From Sabellastarte sp. h YS-2021 (lineage: Eukaryota; Annelida; Polychaeta; Sabellida; Sabellidae), in assembly GCA_964017235.1 (NCBI GenBank), contig OZ024931.1, positions 119,671,530-119,735,529 of the forward strand: 64,000 nucleotides of DNA, given 5' to 3'. The notes beneath the pieces are model-generated. The model saw only the letters and a list, made by a program, of their open reading frames with translations. It was not told the DNA's origin and made no database searches. This document shows positions 52,361 to 63,852 of this stretch, piece by piece. Made by a program: the position numbers and the translations under genes. The first letter of the stretch is position 1. The number at the start of each line of letters is the position of its first letter.

Positions 52361-53712
52361 TTATGTCAAGTATATCATAATGTATCAAATCTGAAGACCA
52401 AAATTAATTTCAGTTATGTTTTGACAATAAAAGATGACATTTTAGGCGCATTTGGAGCATTACATCTCTGAACAGAAATTATTTAACCCAAATAGGGCTG
52501 TTAAATGGTCAAAAATAGATGCGTAACAGCCCCAATGAGAACAAAATGTTGGTCTATAATCCTGAAATTTGGCCAGAAAATCCTCTGTAACTAGCTAAAT
52601 CTGACTGCACAGGTTTCAGGATTACATCTGGTATAGCAGTGACTACTTGTGTGGTATTTGGACTCCAGCAGGCCTGTAATATGCCTGCTGGGGGGTGCAT
52701 TAACATATACTCATATTTTGCCCAATCAGACAGATGTAAGGCTCTAAACCACATTTCTCGCGAGTGTGGGAGCCACTCAGAGAGAATTAAGTAGTGTATT
52801 CCTTAAGAAATACACACCAAGCTCAAAATACATGTCTTGGGAGTGCATGTAGCGAGGGTACCACTAAATGGCAATTCAGCCCCAAAACACCCCTTAAGGC
52901 TGTTATATCTGGCTCAAATTTTCACAGAAAATTCAGTTTATACCAGAGAATAAAATTGTATTGGTCTGAACCACTCGAGAGCCATTTTAGGAATTTCAGT
53001 TCCGGGGTGTGGGGCTGGTCTGCCCCCCATGGGGGGTTATGTCAAGTATATCATAATGTATCAAATCTGAAGACCAAAATTAATTTCAGTTATGTTTTGA
53101 CAATAAAAGATGACATTTTAGGCGCATTTGGAGCATTACATCTCTGAACAGAAATTATTTAACCCAAATAGGGCTGTTAAATGGTCAAAAGTAGATGCGT
53201 AACAGCCCCAATGAGAACAAAATGTTGGTCTATAATCCTGAAATTTGGCCAGAAAATCCTCTGTAATTAGCTAAATCTGACTGCACAGGTTTCAGGATTA
53301 CATCTGGTATAGCAGTGACTACTTGTGTGGTATTTGGACTCCAGCAGGCCTGTAATATGCCTGCTGGGGGGTGCATTAACATATACTCATATTTTGCCCA
53401 ATCAGACAGATGTAAGGCTCTAAACCACATTTCTCGCGAGTGTGGGAGCCACTCAGAGAGAATTAAGTAGTGTATTCCTTAAGAAATACACACCAAGCTC
53501 AAAATACATGTCTTGGGAGTGCATGTAGCGAGGGTACCACTAAATGGCAATTCAGCCCCAAAACACCCCTTAAGGCTGTTATATCTGGCTCAAATTTTCA
53601 CAGAAAATTCAGTTTATACCAGAGAATAAAATTGTATTGGTCTGAACCACTCGAGAGCCATTTTAGGAATTTCAGTTCCGGGGTGTGGGGCTGGTCTGCC
53701 CCCCATGGGGGG
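52361..53712 (+). repeat. B block 10: ACC and GTC monomers before the higher-order repeat
   Basis: Together with the last two ACT copies of the preceding run these read ACT, ACT, ACC, GTC. That is the higher-order unit downstream minus its last GTC and minus the T-to-G marker. They may be a partial or ancestral copy of it. Confidence 0.7.
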
Positions 53713-53846
53713 TTATGTCAAGTATATCATAATGTATCAAATCTGAAGACCAAAATTAATTTCAGTTATGTTTTGACAATAAAAGATGACATTTTAGGCG
53801 CATTTGGAGCATTACATCTCTGAACAGAAATTATTTAACCCAAATA

Positions 53847-53884
53847 GGGCTGTTAAATGGTCAAAAATAGATGCGTAACAGCCC
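53847..53884. repeat. Inverted repeat 1 (9 bp arms, 20 bp spacer)
   Basis: GGGCTGTTA at 53847-53855 is the exact reverse complement of TAACAGCCC at 53876-53884. The variable G/A site at monomer position 155 lies in the spacer. The arms are conserved in the A subfamily too. It is repeated in every monomer. Confidence 0.85.
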
Positions 53885-53908
53885 CAATGAGAACAAAATG
53901 TTGGTCTA

Positions 53909-53976
53909 TAATCCTGAAATTTGGCCAGAAAATCCTCTGTAACTAGCTAAATCTGACTGCACAGGTTTCAGGATTA
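53909..53976. repeat. Inverted repeat 2 (11 bp arms, 46 bp spacer)
   Basis: TAATCCTGAAA at 53909-53919 is the exact reverse complement of TTTCAGGATTA at 53966-53976. In the A subfamily the right arm reads TTTTAGGATTA, which leaves one mismatch. The variable T/C site at position 231 lies in the spacer. Confidence 0.85.
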
Positions 53977-54016
53977 CATCTGGTATAGCAGTGACTACTT
54001 GTGTGGTATTTGGACT

Positions 54017-54043
54017 CCAGCAGGCCTGTAATATGCCTGCTGG
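54017..54043. repeat. Inverted repeat 3 (9 bp arms, 9 bp loop)
   Basis: CCAGCAGGC (54017-54025) and GCCTGCTGG (54035-54043) flank the loop CTGTAATAT. This GC-rich arm pair is the most likely of the four to form a hairpin. It abuts a GGGGGG run. The rare C to A variant at 24951 and 31711 disrupts the left arm. Confidence 0.85.
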
Positions 54044-54107
54044 GGGGTGCATTAACATATACTCATATTTTGCCCAATCAGACAGATGTAAGGCTCTAAA
54101 CCACATT

Positions 54108-54117
54108 TCTCGCGAGT
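54108..54117. promoter_or_regulatory. CTCGCGAG element, possible BANP-type CGCG motif
   Basis: Each monomer holds one 8 bp palindrome CTCGCGAG with two CpGs. In A copies it extends to TCTCGCGAGA (410-419, 1096-1105), which equals the published binding consensus of the vertebrate CpG-island factor BANP. B copies read TCTCGCGAGT, one base off. One B copy (43294) has lost a CpG. Binding is inference; only the motif is seen. Confidence 0.45.
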
Positions 54118-54145
54118 GTGGGAGCCACTTAGAGAGAATTAAGTA

Positions 54146-54167
54146 GTGTATTCCTTAAGAAATACAC
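54146..54167. repeat. Inverted repeat 4 (7 bp arms, 8 bp loop)
   Basis: GTGTATT (54146-54152) and AATACAC (54161-54167) flank CCTTAAGA. The whole 22 bp is a palindrome apart from one mismatched pair. It is identical in A and B. Confidence 0.8.
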
Positions 54168-54374
54168 ACCAAGCTCAAAATACATGTCTTGGGAGTGCAT
54201 GTAGCGAGGGTACCACTAAATGGCAATTCAGCCCCAAAACACCCCTTAAGGCTGTTATATCTGGCTCAAATTTTCACAGAAAATTCAGTTTATACCAGAG
54301 AATAAAATTGTATTGGTCTGAACCACTCGAGAGCCATTTTAGGAATTTCAGTTCCGGGGTGTGGGGCTGGTCTG

Positions 54375-54388
54375 CCCCCCATGGGGGG
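54375..54388. repeat. C6-ATG-G6 palindrome at the monomer boundary
   Basis: CCCCCCATGGGGGG is a perfect 14 bp palindrome. It is the length-variable point of the array: C5 at 2323-2327, C7 at 45585-45591, G5 near 15849-15853 and G7 at 51678-51684, while A copies have C18 with ATGTGGGGG. A G to T at 46950 breaks it once. It was used as the monomer boundary here, which is a convention only. Confidence 0.88.
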
Positions 54389-57092
54389 TTATGTCAAGTA
54401 TATCATAATGTATCAAATCTGAAGACCAAAATTAATTTCAGTTATGTTTTGACAATAAAAGATGACATTTTAGGCGCATTTGGAGCATTACATCTCTGAA
54501 CAGAAATTATTTAACCCAAATAGGGCTGTTAAATGGTCAAAAATAGATGCGTAACAGCCCCAATGAGAACAAAATGTTGGTCTATAATCCTGAAATTTGG
54601 CCAGAAAATCCTCTGTAACTAGCTAAATCTGACTGCACAGGTTTCAGGATTACATCTGGTATAGCAGTGACTACTTGTGTGGTATTTGGACTCCAGCAGG
54701 CCTGTAATATGCCTGCTGGGGGGTGCATTAACATATACTCATATTTTGCCCAATCAGACAGATGTAAGGCTCTAAACCACATTTCTCGCGAGTGTGGGAG
54801 CCACTTAGAGAGAATTAAGTAGTGTATTCCTTAAGAAATACACACCAAGCTCAAAATACATGTCTTGGGAGTGCATGTAGCGAGGGTACCACTAAATGGC
54901 AATTCAGCCCCAAAACACCCCTTAAGGCTGTTATATCTGGCTCAAATTTTCACAGAAAATTCAGTTTATACCAGAGAATAAAATTGTATTGGTCTGAACC
55001 ACTCGAGAGCCATTTTAGGAATTTCAGTTCCGGGGTGTGGGGCGGGTCTGCCCCCCATGGGGGGTTATGTCAAGTATATCATAATGTATCAAATCTGAAG
55101 ACCAAAATTAATTTCAGTTATGTTTTGACAATAAAAGATGACATTTTAGGCGCATTTGGAGCATTACATCTCTGAACAGAAATTATTTAACCCAAATAGG
55201 GCTGTTAAATGGTCAAAAATAGATGCGTAACAGCCCCAATGAGAACAAAATGTTGGTCTATAATCCTGAAATTTGGCCAGAAAATCCTCTGTAACTAGCT
55301 AAATCTGACTGCACAGGTTTCAGGATTACATCTGGTATAGCAGTGACTACTTGTGTGGTATTTGGACTCCAGCAGGCCTGTAATATGCCTGCTGGGGGGT
55401 GCATTAACATATACTCATATTTTGCCCAATCAGACAGATGTAAGGCTCTAAACCACATTTCTCGCGAGTGTGGGAGCCACTCAGAGAGAATTAAGTAGTG
55501 TATTCCTTAAGAAATACACACCAAGCTCAAAATACATGTCTTGGGAGTGCATGTAGCGAGGGTACCACTAAATGGCAATTCAGCCCCAAAACACCCCTTA
55601 AGGCTGTTATATCTGGCTCAAATTTTCACAGAAAATTCAGTTTATACCAGAGAATAAAATTGTATTGGTCTGAACCACTCGAGAGCCATTTTAGGAATTT
55701 CAGTTCCGGGGTGTGGGGCTGGTCTGCCCCCCATGGGGGGTTATGTCAAGTATATCATAATGTATCAAATCTGAAGACCAAAATTAATTTCAGTTATGTT
55801 TTGACAATAAAAGATGACATTTTAGGCGCATTTGGAGCATTACATCTCTGAACAGAAATTATTTAACCCAAATAGGGCTGTTAAATGGTCAAAAGTAGAT
55901 GCGTAACAGCCCCAATGAGAACAAAATGTTGGTCTATAATCCTGAAATTTGGCCAGAAAATCCTCTGTAATTAGCTAAATCTGACTGCACAGGTTTCAGG
56001 ATTACATCTGGTATAGCAGTGACTACTTGTGTGGTATTTGGACTCCAGCAGGCCTGTAATATGCCTGCTGGGGGGTGCATTAACATATACTCATATTTTG
56101 CCCAATCAGACAGATGTAAGGCTCTAAACCACATTTCTCGCGAGTGTGGGAGCCACTCAGAGAGAATTAAGTAGTGTATTCCTTAAGAAATACACACCAA
56201 GCTCAAAATACATGTCTTGGGAGTGCATGTAGCGAGGGTACCACTAAATGGCAATTCAGCCCCAAAACACCCCTTAAGGCTGTTATATCTGGCTCAAATT
56301 TTCACAGAAAATTCAGTTTATACCAGAGAATAAAATTGTATTGGTCTGAACCACTCGAGAGCCATTTTAGGAATTTCAGTTCCGGGGTGTGGGGCTGGTC
56401 TGCCCCCCATGGGGGGTTATGTCAAGTATATCATAATGTATCAAATCTGAAGACCAAAATTAATTTCAGTTATGTTTTGACAATAAAAGATGACATTTTA
56501 GGCGCATTTGGAGCATTACATCTCTGAACAGAAATTATTTAACCCAAATAGGGCTGTTAAATGGTCAAAAGTAGATGCGTAACAGCCCCAATGAGAACAA
56601 AATGTTGGTCTATAATCCTGAAATTTGGCCAGAAAATCCTCTGTAATTAGCTAAATCTGACTGCACAGGTTTCAGGATTACATCTGGTATAGCAGTGACT
56701 ACTTGTGTGGTATTTGGACTCCAGCAGGCCTGTAATATGCCTGCTGGGGGGTGCATTAACATATACTCATATTTTGCCCAATCAGACAGATGTAAGGCTC
56801 TAAACCACATTTCTCGCGAGTGTGGGAGCCACTCAGAGAGAATTAAGTAGTGTATTCCTTAAGAAATACACACCAAGCTCAAAATACATGTCTTGGGAGT
56901 GCATGTAGCGAGGGTACCACTAAATGGCAATTCAGCCCCAAAACACCCCTTAAGGCTGTTATATCTGGCTCAAATTTTCACAGAAAATTCAGTTTATACC
57001 AGAGAATAAAATTGTATTGGTCTGAACCACTCGAGAGCCATTTTAGGAATTTCAGTTCCGGGGTGTGGGGCTGGTCTGCCCCCCATGGGGGG

Positions 57093-60000
57093 TTATGTCA
57101 AGTATATCATAATGTATCAAATCTGAAGACCAAAATTAATTTCAGTTATGTTTTGACAATAAAAGATGACATTTTAGGCGCATTTGGAGCATTACATCTC
57201 TGAACAGAAATTATTTAACCCAAATAGGGCTGTTAAATGGTCAAAAATAGATGCGTAACAGCCCCAATGAGAACAAAATGTTGGTCTATAATCCTGAAAT
57301 TTGGCCAGAAAATCCTCTGTAACTAGCTAAATCTGACTGCACAGGTTTCAGGATTACATCTGGTATAGCAGTGACTACTTGTGTGGTATTTGGACTCCAG
57401 CAGGCCTGTAATATGCCTGCTGGGGGGTGCATTAACATATACTCATATTTTGCCCAATCAGACAGATGTAAGGCTCTAAACCACATTTCTCGCGAGTGTG
57501 GGAGCCACTTAGAGAGAATTAAGTAGTGTATTCCTTAAGAAATACACACCAAGCTCAAAATACATGTCTTGGGAGTGCATGTAGCGAGGGTACCACTAAA
57601 TGGCAATTCAGCCCCAAAACACCCCTTAAGGCTGTTATATCTGGCTCAAATTTTCACAGAAAATTCAGTTTATACCAGAGAATAAAATTGTATTGGTCTG
57701 AACCACTCGAGAGCCATTTTAGGAATTTCAGTTCCGGGGTGTGGGGCTGGTCTGCCCCCCATGGGGGGTTATGTCAAGTATATCATAATGTATCAAATCT
57801 GAAGACCAAAATTAATTTCAGTTATGTTTTGACAATAAAAGATGACATTTTAGGCGCATTTGGAGCATTACATCTCTGAACAGAAATTATTTAACCCAAA
57901 TAGGGCTGTTAAATGGTCAAAAATAGATGCGTAACAGCCCCAATGAGAACAAAATGTTGGTCTATAATCCTGAAATTTGGCCAGAAAATCCTCTGTAACT
58001 AGCTAAATCTGACTGCACAGGTTTCAGGATTACATCTGGTATAGCAGTGACTACTTGTGTGGTATTTGGACTCCAGCAGGCCTGTAATATGCCTGCTGGG
58101 GGGTGCATTAACATATACTCATATTTTGCCCAATCAGACAGATGTAAGGCTCTAAACCACATTTCTCGCGAGTGTGGGAGCCACTTAGAGAGAATTAAGT
58201 AGTGTATTCCTTAAGAAATACACACCAAGCTCAAAATACATGTCTTGGGAGTGCATGTAGCGAGGGTACCACTAAATGGCAATTCAGCCCCAAAACACCC
58301 CTTAAGGCTGTTATATCTGGCTCAAATTTTCACAGAAAATTCAGTTTATACCAGAGAATAAAATTGTATTGGTCTGAACCACTCGAGAGCCATTTTAGGA
58401 ATTTCAGTTCCGGGGTGTGGGGCGGGTCTGCCCCCCATGGGGGGTTATGTCAAGTATATCATAATGTATCAAATCTGAAGACCAAAATTAATTTCAGTTA
58501 TGTTTTGACAATAAAAGATGACATTTTAGGCGCATTTGGAGCATTACATCTCTGAACAGAAATTATTTAACCCAAATAGGGCTGTTAAATGGTCAAAAAT
58601 AGATGCGTAACAGCCCCAATGAGAACAAAATGTTGGTCTATAATCCTGAAATTTGGCCAGAAAATCCTCTGTAACTAGCTAAATCTGACTGCACAGGTTT
58701 CAGGATTACATCTGGTATAGCAGTGACTACTTGTGTGGTATTTGGACTCCAGCAGGCCTGTAATATGCCTGCTGGGGGGTGCATTAACATATACTCATAT
58801 TTTGCCCAATCAGACAGATGTAAGGCTCTAAACCACATTTCTCGCGAGTGTGGGAGCCACTCAGAGAGAATTAAGTAGTGTATTCCTTAAGAAATACACA
58901 CCAAGCTCAAAATACATGTCTTGGGAGTGCATGTAGCGAGGGTACCACTAAATGGCAATTCAGCCCCAAAACACCCCTTAAGGCTGTTATATCTGGCTCA
59001 AATTTTCACAGAAAATTCAGTTTATACCAGAGAATAAAATTGTATTGGTCTGAACCACTCGAGAGCCATTTTAGGAATTTCAGTTCCGGGGTGTGGGGCT
59101 GGTCTGCCCCCCATGGGGGGTTATGTCAAGTATATCATAATGTATCAAATCTGAAGACCAAAATTAATTTCAGTTATGTTTTGACAATAAAAGATGACAT
59201 TTTAGGCGCATTTGGAGCATTACATCTCTGAACAGAAATTATTTAACCCAAATAGGGCTGTTAAATGGTCAAAAGTAGATGCGTAACAGCCCCAATGAGA
59301 ACAAAATGTTGGTCTATAATCCTGAAATTTGGCCAGAAAATCCTCTGTAATTAGCTAAATCTGACTGCACAGGTTTCAGGATTACATCTGGTATAGCAGT
59401 GACTACTTGTGTGGTATTTGGACTCCAGCAGGCCTGTAATATGCCTGCTGGGGGGTGCATTAACATATACTCATATTTTGCCCAATCAGACAGATGTAAG
59501 GCTCTAAACCACATTTCTCGCGAGTGTGGGAGCCACTCAGAGAGAATTAAGTAGTGTATTCCTTAAGAAATACACACCAAGCTCAAAATACATGTCTTGG
59601 GAGTGCATGTAGCGAGGGTACCACTAAATGGCAATTCAGCCCCAAAACACCCCTTAAGGCTGTTATATCTGGCTCAAATTTTCACAGAAAATTCAGTTTA
59701 TACCAGAGAATAAAATTGTATTGGTCTGAACCACTCGAGAGCCATTTTAGGAATTTCAGTTCCGGGGTGTGGGGCTGGTCTGCCCCCCATGGGGGGTTAT
59801 GTCAAGTATATCATAATGTATCAAATCTGAAGACCAAAATTAATTTCAGTTATGTTTTGACAATAAAAGATGACATTTTAGGCGCATTTGGAGCATTACA
59901 TCTCTGAACAGAAATTATTTAACCCAAATAGGGCTGTTAAATGGTCAAAAGTAGATGCGTAACAGCCCCAATGAGAACAAAATGTTGGTCTATAATCCTG

Positions 60001-60472
60001 AAATTTGGCCAGAAAATCCTCTGTAATTAGCTAAATCTGACTGCACAGGTTTCAGGATTACATCTGGTATAGCAGTGACTACTTGTGTGGTATTTGGACT
60101 CCAGCAGGCCTGTAATATGCCTGCTGGGGGGTGCATTAACATATACTCATATTTTGCCCAATCAGACAGATGTAAGGCTCTAAACCACATTTCTCGCGAG
60201 TGTGGGAGCCACTCAGAGAGAATTAAGTAGTGTATTCCTTAAGAAATACACACCAAGCTCAAAATACATGTCTTGGGAGTGCATGTAGCGAGGGTACCAC
60301 TAAATGGCAATTCAGCCCCAAAACACCCCTTAAGGCTGTTATATCTGGCTCAAATTTTCACAGAAAATTCAGTTTATACCAGAGAATAAAATTGTATTGG
60401 TCTGAACCACTCGAGAGCCATTTTAGGAATTTCAGTTCCGGGGTGTGGGGCTGGTCTGCCCCCCATGGGGGG
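57093..60472 (+). repeat. Higher-order repeat copy 2 (five monomers, 3380 bp)
   Basis: Same order of types (ACT, ACT, ACC, GTC, GTC) and the same marker at 58424, exactly 3380 bp after the first. All fifteen typed sites and the marker agree with copy 1. Confidence 0.9.
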
Positions 60473-63400
60473 TTATGTCAAGTATATCATAATGTATCAA
60501 ATCTGAAGACCAAAATTAATTTCAGTTATGTTTTGACAATAAAAGATGACATTTTAGGCGCATTTGGAGCATTACATCTCTGAACAGAAATTATTTAACC
60601 CAAATAGGGCTGTTAAATGGTCAAAAATAGATGCGTAACAGCCCCAATGAGAACAAAATGTTGGTCTATAATCCTGAAATTTGGCCAGAAAATCCTCTGT
60701 AACTAGCTAAATCTGACTGCACAGGTTTCAGGATTACATCTGGTATAGCAGTGACTACTTGTGTGGTATTTGGACTCCAGCAGGCCTGTAATATGCCTGC
60801 TGGGGGGTGCATTAACATATACTCATATTTTGCCCAATCAGACAGATGTAAGGCTCTAAACCACATTTCTCGCGAGTGTGGGAGCCACTTAGAGAGAATT
60901 AAGTAGTGTATTCCTTAAGAAATACACACCAAGCTCAAAATACATGTCTTGGGAGTGCATGTAGCGAGGGTACCACTAAATGGCAATTCAGCCCCAAAAC
61001 ACCCCTTAAGGCTGTTATATCTGGCTCAAATTTTCACAGAAAATTCAGTTTATACCAGAGAATAAAATTGTATTGGTCTGAACCACTCGAGAGCCATTTT
61101 AGGAATTTCAGTTCCGGGGTGTGGGGCTGGTCTGCCCCCCATGGGGGGTTATGTCAAGTATATCATAATGTATCAAATCTGAAGACCAAAATTAATTTCA
61201 GTTATGTTTTGACAATAAAAGATGACATTTTAGGCGCATTTGGAGCATTACATCTCTGAACAGAAATTATTTAACCCAAATAGGGCTGTTAAATGGTCAA
61301 AAATAGATGCGTAACAGCCCCAATGAGAACAAAATGTTGGTCTATAATCCTGAAATTTGGCCAGAAAATCCTCTGTAACTAGCTAAATCTGACTGCACAG
61401 GTTTCAGGATTACATCTGGTATAGCAGTGACTACTTGTGTGGTATTTGGACTCCAGCAGGCCTGTAATATGCCTGCTGGGGGGTGCATTAACATATACTC
61501 ATATTTTGCCCAATCAGACAGATGTAAGGCTCTAAACCACATTTCTCGCGAGTGTGGGAGCCACTTAGAGAGAATTAAGTAGTGTATTCCTTAAGAAATA
61601 CACACCAAGCTCAAAATACATGTCTTGGGAGTGCATGTAGCGAGGGTACCACTAAATGGCAATTCAGCCCCAAAACACCCCTTAAGGCTGTTATATCTGG
61701 CTCAAATTTTCACAGAAAATTCAGTTTATACCAGAGAATAAAATTGTATTGGTCTGAACCACTCGAGAGCCATTTTAGGAATTTCAGTTCCGGGGTGTGG
61801 GGCGGGTCTGCCCCCCATGGGGGGTTATGTCAAGTATATCATAATGTATCAAATCTGAAGACCAAAATTAATTTCAGTTATGTTTTGACAATAAAAGATG
61901 ACATTTTAGGCGCATTTGGAGCATTACATCTCTGAACAGAAATTATTTAACCCAAATAGGGCTGTTAAATGGTCAAAAATAGATGCGTAACAGCCCCAAT
62001 GAGAACAAAATGTTGGTCTATAATCCTGAAATTTGGCCAGAAAATCCTCTGTAACTAGCTAAATCTGACTGCACAGGTTTCAGGATTACATCTGGTATAG
62101 CAGTGACTACTTGTGTGGTATTTGGACTCCAGCAGGCCTGTAATATGCCTGCTGGGGGGTGCATTAACATATACTCATATTTTGCCCAATCAGACAGATG
62201 TAAGGCTCTAAACCACATTTCTCGCGAGTGTGGGAGCCACTCAGAGAGAATTAAGTAGTGTATTCCTTAAGAAATACACACCAAGCTCAAAATACATGTC
62301 TTGGGAGTGCATGTAGCGAGGGTACCACTAAATGGCAATTCAGCCCCAAAACACCCCTTAAGGCTGTTATATCTGGCTCAAATTTTCACAGAAAATTCAG
62401 TTTATACCAGAGAATAAAATTGTATTGGTCTGAACCACTCGAGAGCCATTTTAGGAATTTCAGTTCCGGGGTGTGGGGCTGGTCTGCCCCCCATGGGGGG
62501 TTATGTCAAGTATATCATAATGTATCAAATCTGAAGACCAAAATTAATTTCAGTTATGTTTTGACAATAAAAGATGACATTTTAGGCGCATTTGGAGCAT
62601 TACATCTCTGAACAGAAATTATTTAACCCAAATAGGGCTGTTAAATGGTCAAAAGTAGATGCGTAACAGCCCCAATGAGAACAAAATGTTGGTCTATAAT
62701 CCTGAAATTTGGCCAGAAAATCCTCTGTAATTAGCTAAATCTGACTGCACAGGTTTCAGGATTACATCTGGTATAGCAGTGACTACTTGTGTGGTATTTG
62801 GACTCCAGCAGGCCTGTAATATGCCTGCTGGGGGGTGCATTAACATATACTCATATTTTGCCCAATCAGACAGATGTAAGGCTCTAAACCACATTTCTCG
62901 CGAGTGTGGGAGCCACTCAGAGAGAATTAAGTAGTGTATTCCTTAAGAAATACACACCAAGCTCAAAATACATGTCTTGGGAGTGCATGTAGCGAGGGTA
63001 CCACTAAATGGCAATTCAGCCCCAAAACACCCCTTAAGGCTGTTATATCTGGCTCAAATTTTCACAGAAAATTCAGTTTATACCAGAGAATAAAATTGTA
63101 TTGGTCTGAACCACTCGAGAGCCATTTTAGGAATTTCAGTTCCGGGGTGTGGGGCTGGTCTGCCCCCCATGGGGGGTTATGTCAAGTATATCATAATGTA
63201 TCAAATCTGAAGACCAAAATTAATTTCAGTTATGTTTTGACAATAAAAGATGACATTTTAGGCGCATTTGGAGCATTACATCTCTGAACAGAAATTATTT
63301 AACCCAAATAGGGCTGTTAAATGGTCAAAAGTAGATGCGTAACAGCCCCAATGAGAACAAAATGTTGGTCTATAATCCTGAAATTTGGCCAGAAAATCCT

Positions 63401-63852
63401 CTGTAATTAGCTAAATCTGACTGCACAGGTTTCAGGATTACATCTGGTATAGCAGTGACTACTTGTGTGGTATTTGGACTCCAGCAGGCCTGTAATATGC
63501 CTGCTGGGGGGTGCATTAACATATACTCATATTTTGCCCAATCAGACAGATGTAAGGCTCTAAACCACATTTCTCGCGAGTGTGGGAGCCACTCAGAGAG
63601 AATTAAGTAGTGTATTCCTTAAGAAATACACACCAAGCTCAAAATACATGTCTTGGGAGTGCATGTAGCGAGGGTACCACTAAATGGCAATTCAGCCCCA
63701 AAACACCCCTTAAGGCTGTTATATCTGGCTCAAATTTTCACAGAAAATTCAGTTTATACCAGAGAATAAAATTGTATTGGTCTGAACCACTCGAGAGCCA
63801 TTTTAGGAATTTCAGTTCCGGGGTGTGGGGCTGGTCTGCCCCCCATGGGGGG
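60473..63852 (+). repeat. Higher-order repeat copy 3 (five monomers, 3380 bp)
   Basis: Same order of types and the same marker at 61804, again exactly 3380 bp on. The window ends 148 bp into the next monomer, before any typing site, so continuation of the higher-order array beyond 64000 cannot be judged. Confidence 0.9.

Follow-up and report, generated by a model that had tools for sequence, protein, structure and literature searches.

Three exact copies of a five-monomer block in a homogenised 676-bp satellite array of Sabellastarte sp., probably a local tandem triplication

The stretch of DNA analysed here, referred to below as the window, is 64,000 nucleotides long and occupies positions 119,671,530-119,735,529 of C5, a contig of 155.0 Mb in a genome of 1.786 Gb and 647 contigs. 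Apart from one gap, the window consists of a 676-bp satellite arranged head to tail, with 88 of its 94 monomer-start spacings being exactly 676 bp. Monomers free of N number 94 (93 whole and one cut at the window end), which corrects an earlier count of 92. The window and 100 kb on either side make up the 264 kb examined in full; regions beyond were covered by small samples. All 381 BLAST pieces from the 264 kb lie in a single orientation. The same region yields 377 monomer-start intervals, of which 375 (640-720 bp, no N) were kept, those affected by the gap and by a transposon insertion being dropped, and the 375 monomers fall into 159 exact types. Based on the window, its flanks and the outer samples, the array starts near 119.5365 Mb and reaches 119.853 Mb or beyond, a length of about 320 kb. 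The outer array was partly sampled, with closely spaced pattern matches bridging its left parts, and the satellite is absent from all five samples taken leftwards from 119.5215 Mb and all seven taken rightwards from 119.856 Mb. One reference monomer contains no long open frame, and the longest stop-to-stop frame in its trimer is 118 codons. Tandem Repeats Finder, for which the longest period was 500, returned no rows. As a long head-to-tail array of one non-coding unit, the sequence is satellite DNA.

Two subfamilies meet within the window at a run of 200 N (1326-1525), an assembly gap. To the left (1-1325, extending beyond the window), means per 5 kb are ~96-97% identical to the reference monomer. 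To the right (1526-64000, also extending beyond the window) lies a homogeneous subfamily, ~99.8% identical overall, for which the 5-kb means stay at ~99.5-99.9% as far as ~119.75 Mb and then fall to 98-99% and finally to 96.7%. Within the 264 kb, none of the exact types among the 136 monomers on the left side of the gap recurs on its right side. Since the gap divides two subfamilies, the order across it presumably rests on scaffolding. Hardly any of the C5 subfamily lies elsewhere: 128 of the 131 exact genome-wide sites of a 49-mer fall in the 264 kb. For the left subfamily, a 43-mer matches 303 sites on a single strand, and all of the ~100 places listed for it are on C5.

The family as a whole is far more widespread. 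All 375 monomers share a 33-base word with 562 exact sites in the genome, and with 13,887 sites on both strands when up to three mismatches are permitted, as opposed to none for the same word written backwards. At ~680 bp per unit, this suggests a rough family total of ~9 Mb. Places elsewhere were taken from about the first 100 of 5,622 matches, so that the arrays named here are a lower bound. An interrupted array on C3 covers at least 43.207-43.288 Mb and is 87-90% identical to the reference in three samples; a pattern carrying a C3 variant has only two sites genome-wide. On C11, an array begins at 84.88 Mb and reaches 85.20 Mb or further, with 79-84% identity in three of six samples, the satellite being absent from the other three, taken from 85.6 Mb on. 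Arrays near 66.08 Mb on C6 and at a second C5 place, 56.457-56.474 Mb, are known solely from word matches ~680-700 bp apart. Samples 17 kb to the left and 11 kb to the right of the latter were negative, and the array there must therefore be small. Among the matches listed, the C5 places comprise the large array at 119.6 Mb, the small one at 56.46 Mb and a single word match at 121.16 Mb. The satellite is thus an abundant family spread over more than one array.

Some of these arrays are interrupted by other elements. A retrotransposon of 6,968 bp lies left of the window (C5:119,580,233-119,587,200) and has split direct repeats of 261 and 600 bp, together with weak reverse-transcriptase-like and tyrosine-recombinase matches, both under the Pfam cut-offs. 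We take its anatomy to be like that of DIRS/Ngaro elements. It forms a clean insertion between monomer bases, and no target duplication was seen. The C3 array is interrupted by two elements (L044:1292 and L045:1640) at the same monomer position, ~162, which may be a preferred insertion site. These two begin with similar bases (CAGTC, followed by a C-rich stretch) and have no other likeness that we could detect; the one at L045 has a weak tyrosine-recombinase match. The contact of tyrosine-recombinase-like elements with the arrays raised the idea that the monomer itself derives from a transposon. We do not favour this origin, as the C5 element sits cleanly between monomer bases and insertion is the simpler reading. 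Elsewhere in the assembly, contig C647 (15,345 bp) is mitochondrial and uses table 5, the code that keeps its cox1 frame open where table 2 does not, which indicates an invertebrate. Its genes occur on both strands, with cox1, cox2 and cox3 on the plus strand and most nad genes, cob and atp6 on the minus strand (cox1 named by Pfam, the rest by eye from translations).

Within the homogeneous subfamily, five adjacent monomers (3380 bp) occur in three exact copies at 53713-57092, 57093-60472 and 60473-63852. When the 15 monomers are typed by exact sequence, each copy reads 81, 99, 84, 82, 82, corresponding to ACT, ACT with a marker, ACC, GTC and GTC in the letters of the original prediction. Base identity over 53713-63852 is 1.0 at lag 3380 and 0.9978 at lag 676. 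The original prediction held that there are three exact copies and that monomers five apart should be closer than adjacent ones, and both statements are borne out: all 10 pairs five apart are identical, whereas adjacent monomers show, across 14 pairs, a mean of 1.5 differences per 676 sites. The largest difference between any two of the 15 monomers is four of 676 sites. Typing continued past the window, as had been advised, gives a copy number of three. The tract of exact lag-3380 identity begins at 52592, fills the window to 64000 and ends at 64006, six bases beyond it, giving a length of 11,415 bp, or 3.38 copies if the partial ends are counted. The monomers that follow are of types 100, 81 and 101, which breaks the five-type series. 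To gauge how often such an order arises by chance, the order of the 119 monomer types of 119,673,055-119,753,000 was randomised 20,000 times; 13 of these shuffles produced a block with a minimum of three types and three repeats, and the real order contains one such block. The three-copy pattern is real in the assembly.

The marker that distinguishes type 99 from type 81 is a single T-to-G change. As predicted, a 13-base context of the marker matches the window only at 55044, 58424 and 61804, at a spacing of 3380 bp and always in the second monomer of the unit. Its supposed restriction to one phase of the unit does not survive a wider search. A 33-base context has seven sites genome-wide, all on C5 within 23.7 kb, and four of them lie outside the window at 119,746,163-119,750,251, which is 12.8-16.9 kb downstream of the third site in the block. 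They fall into two five-monomer units 3380 bp apart, each with the marker in a pair of neighbouring monomers; the monomers concerned (types 103 and 104) each have one extra private site.

Exact copying of neighbouring monomers is not peculiar to this block. A search of the 375 monomers, which could find whole-monomer units only, returned 10 multi-monomer blocks present in two or more exact copies, and their periods are 2, 2, 2, 3, 4, 4, 5, 5, 5 and 6 monomers. Lags determined at the level of bases, such as 2028, 3380 and 4056, are likewise whole multiples of 676. A much larger unit is found at C5:119,609,303-119,626,877, where 17,575 bp, longer than the whole five-monomer block, are duplicated exactly, with a lag of 22,541 bp (~33 monomers). 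Single monomers are also seen in series, with 25 consecutive identical ones from C5:119,800,980 onward, in a subfamily 96.75% identical to the reference monomer of the window. These results narrow the proposal that the five-monomer block is what is now being amplified. Five monomers are the unit of copying in this stretch, but there is no support for their being the current amplification unit of the array, given that nearby units comprise 1, 2, 3, 4, 5 and 6 monomers, one farther away ~33, and the series ends after three copies. Nor does period 5 persist outside the block: in the rest of the 119-monomer segment, the mean number of differences is 1.438 at lag 1, 1.269 at lag 4 (93 pairs) and 1.315 at lag 5 (92 pairs). 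That lag 5 is no better than lag 4, in conjunction with the varied block sizes, marks the five-monomer unit as a local one. Taken as a whole, the array has been copied in blocks of many sizes, the five-monomer amplification being one local event among many. Three of the 10 blocks do have period 5, and the block at 53713-63852 is the sole one to reach three copies, which could hint at a size preference.

We consider it highly probable (roughly 0.85) that the block arose when five adjacent monomers were recently triplicated in tandem, as a local event, within a strongly homogenised array, in the course of ordinary satellite turnover. Sister chromatids or homologues would most likely have undergone unequal, out-of-register exchange with a shift of five monomers, repeated once; a similar copying process in the course of replication or break repair would offer another route. 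The clustering of all seven marker sites in 23.7 kb is what spread by local exchange would be expected to produce. Three copies with no differences suggest that the event was recent, or that conversion has kept the copies alike, and the five-monomer unit would have no selected role of its own. Sequence alone cannot separate unequal exchange from gene conversion, rolling-circle reinsertion or break-induced replication. A wrong copy number assembled from a near-identical array would mimic such a triplication, and the setting is one in which this might happen: the array in the window is ~99.8% homogeneous, it contains a 200-N gap with no monomer type shared across it, and an exact duplication of 17.6 kb exists elsewhere in the array. 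We nevertheless regard an assembly artefact as unlikely. The marker supplies a landmark, the tract of ~11.4 kb is probably shorter than typical accurate long reads, and the second block with the marker, downstream, bears other private sites in its types 103 and 104.

It is about as improbable that the block belongs to an active centromere of this chromosome as a true higher-order repeat in expansion. Such a role might be suggested by the length of the array (~320 kb), by a subfamily nearly private to it and by the much smaller size of the C5 array observed at 56.46 Mb. Against this, the exact tract takes up 11.4 kb of ~320 kb. The satellite family is also spread over several contigs and occupies more than one place on C5, and on a chromosome with a single centromere its presence alone could not point to that centromere. 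The CENP-B box core is absent from the one reference monomer searched, though many centromeres lack a CENP-B box. The triplication by itself is most likely no sign of a centromere, and nothing else in the window appears to indicate one. A related possibility, to which we likewise assign a very small probability, is that the array represents a centromeric satellite of recent origin, almost confined to one chromosome, at the onset of higher-order repeat formation. This reading would draw on the near-identity of the monomers, the side-by-side blocks of 2 to ~33 monomers and the occurrence of a five-monomer period at three separate places. Were the array centromeric, higher-order repeats would here be seen at birth. 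The local triplication preferred above is, as it stands, ordinary satellite biology, and its value lies in offering a clean example of satellite turnover, in which exact block copies of several sizes are legible in one assembled array.

Whether the block should be called a higher-order repeat depends on the definition. In the general sense, in which monomers n apart are closer than adjacent ones and the block stands in tandem, it is one. The Willard-type definition, as given in PMC12385485, has two parts. Tandem copies of the block are to be less than 5% apart, and the three copies here have no differences at all. The unit is also to consist of distinct monomer types about 20-40% apart, the range of classical alpha-satellite higher-order repeats, and monomers that diverge by less than 5% are counted as a single type (PMC12385485); with at most four differences in 676 sites among its 15 monomers, the five-monomer block then has a single type. 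The small copy number does not in itself bar the name, as two copies of a 52-monomer block are counted as a higher-order repeat in human alpha satellite (PMC12385485). The term fits here only loosely, in the meaning of a copied multi-monomer block.

Like Willard-type human alpha satellite, the C5 block is an n-monomer unit in tandem, with copies closer to one another than are the monomers within a copy. It differs from alpha satellite (PMC12385485) in monomer length (676 bp as opposed to ~171 bp) and in divergence within the unit (at most 4 of 676 sites as opposed to about 20-40%), and it amounts to three copies in one short tract known purely from its sequence. In the Pacific oyster, the satellite Cg170 and the CenH3-linked repeats also represent an invertebrate satellite on several chromosomes, and the presence of Cg170 does not cover all centromeres, as stated in PMC7348941; the C5 satellite is likened to it by description, with no kinship claimed. 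Judged by titles, we found no literature on a 676-bp satellite, and we do not claim that the family is unpublished. The closest counterpart is satellite DNA that evolves by unequal exchange and local amplification. As described in PMC5615363, unequal exchange in a tandem array yields close exact copies of varied monomer numbers. Such satellites share with the C5 array head-to-tail non-coding repeats, adjacent monomers copied together, local homogenisation and related arrays elsewhere (PMC5615363), and we see no difference in kind between the two.
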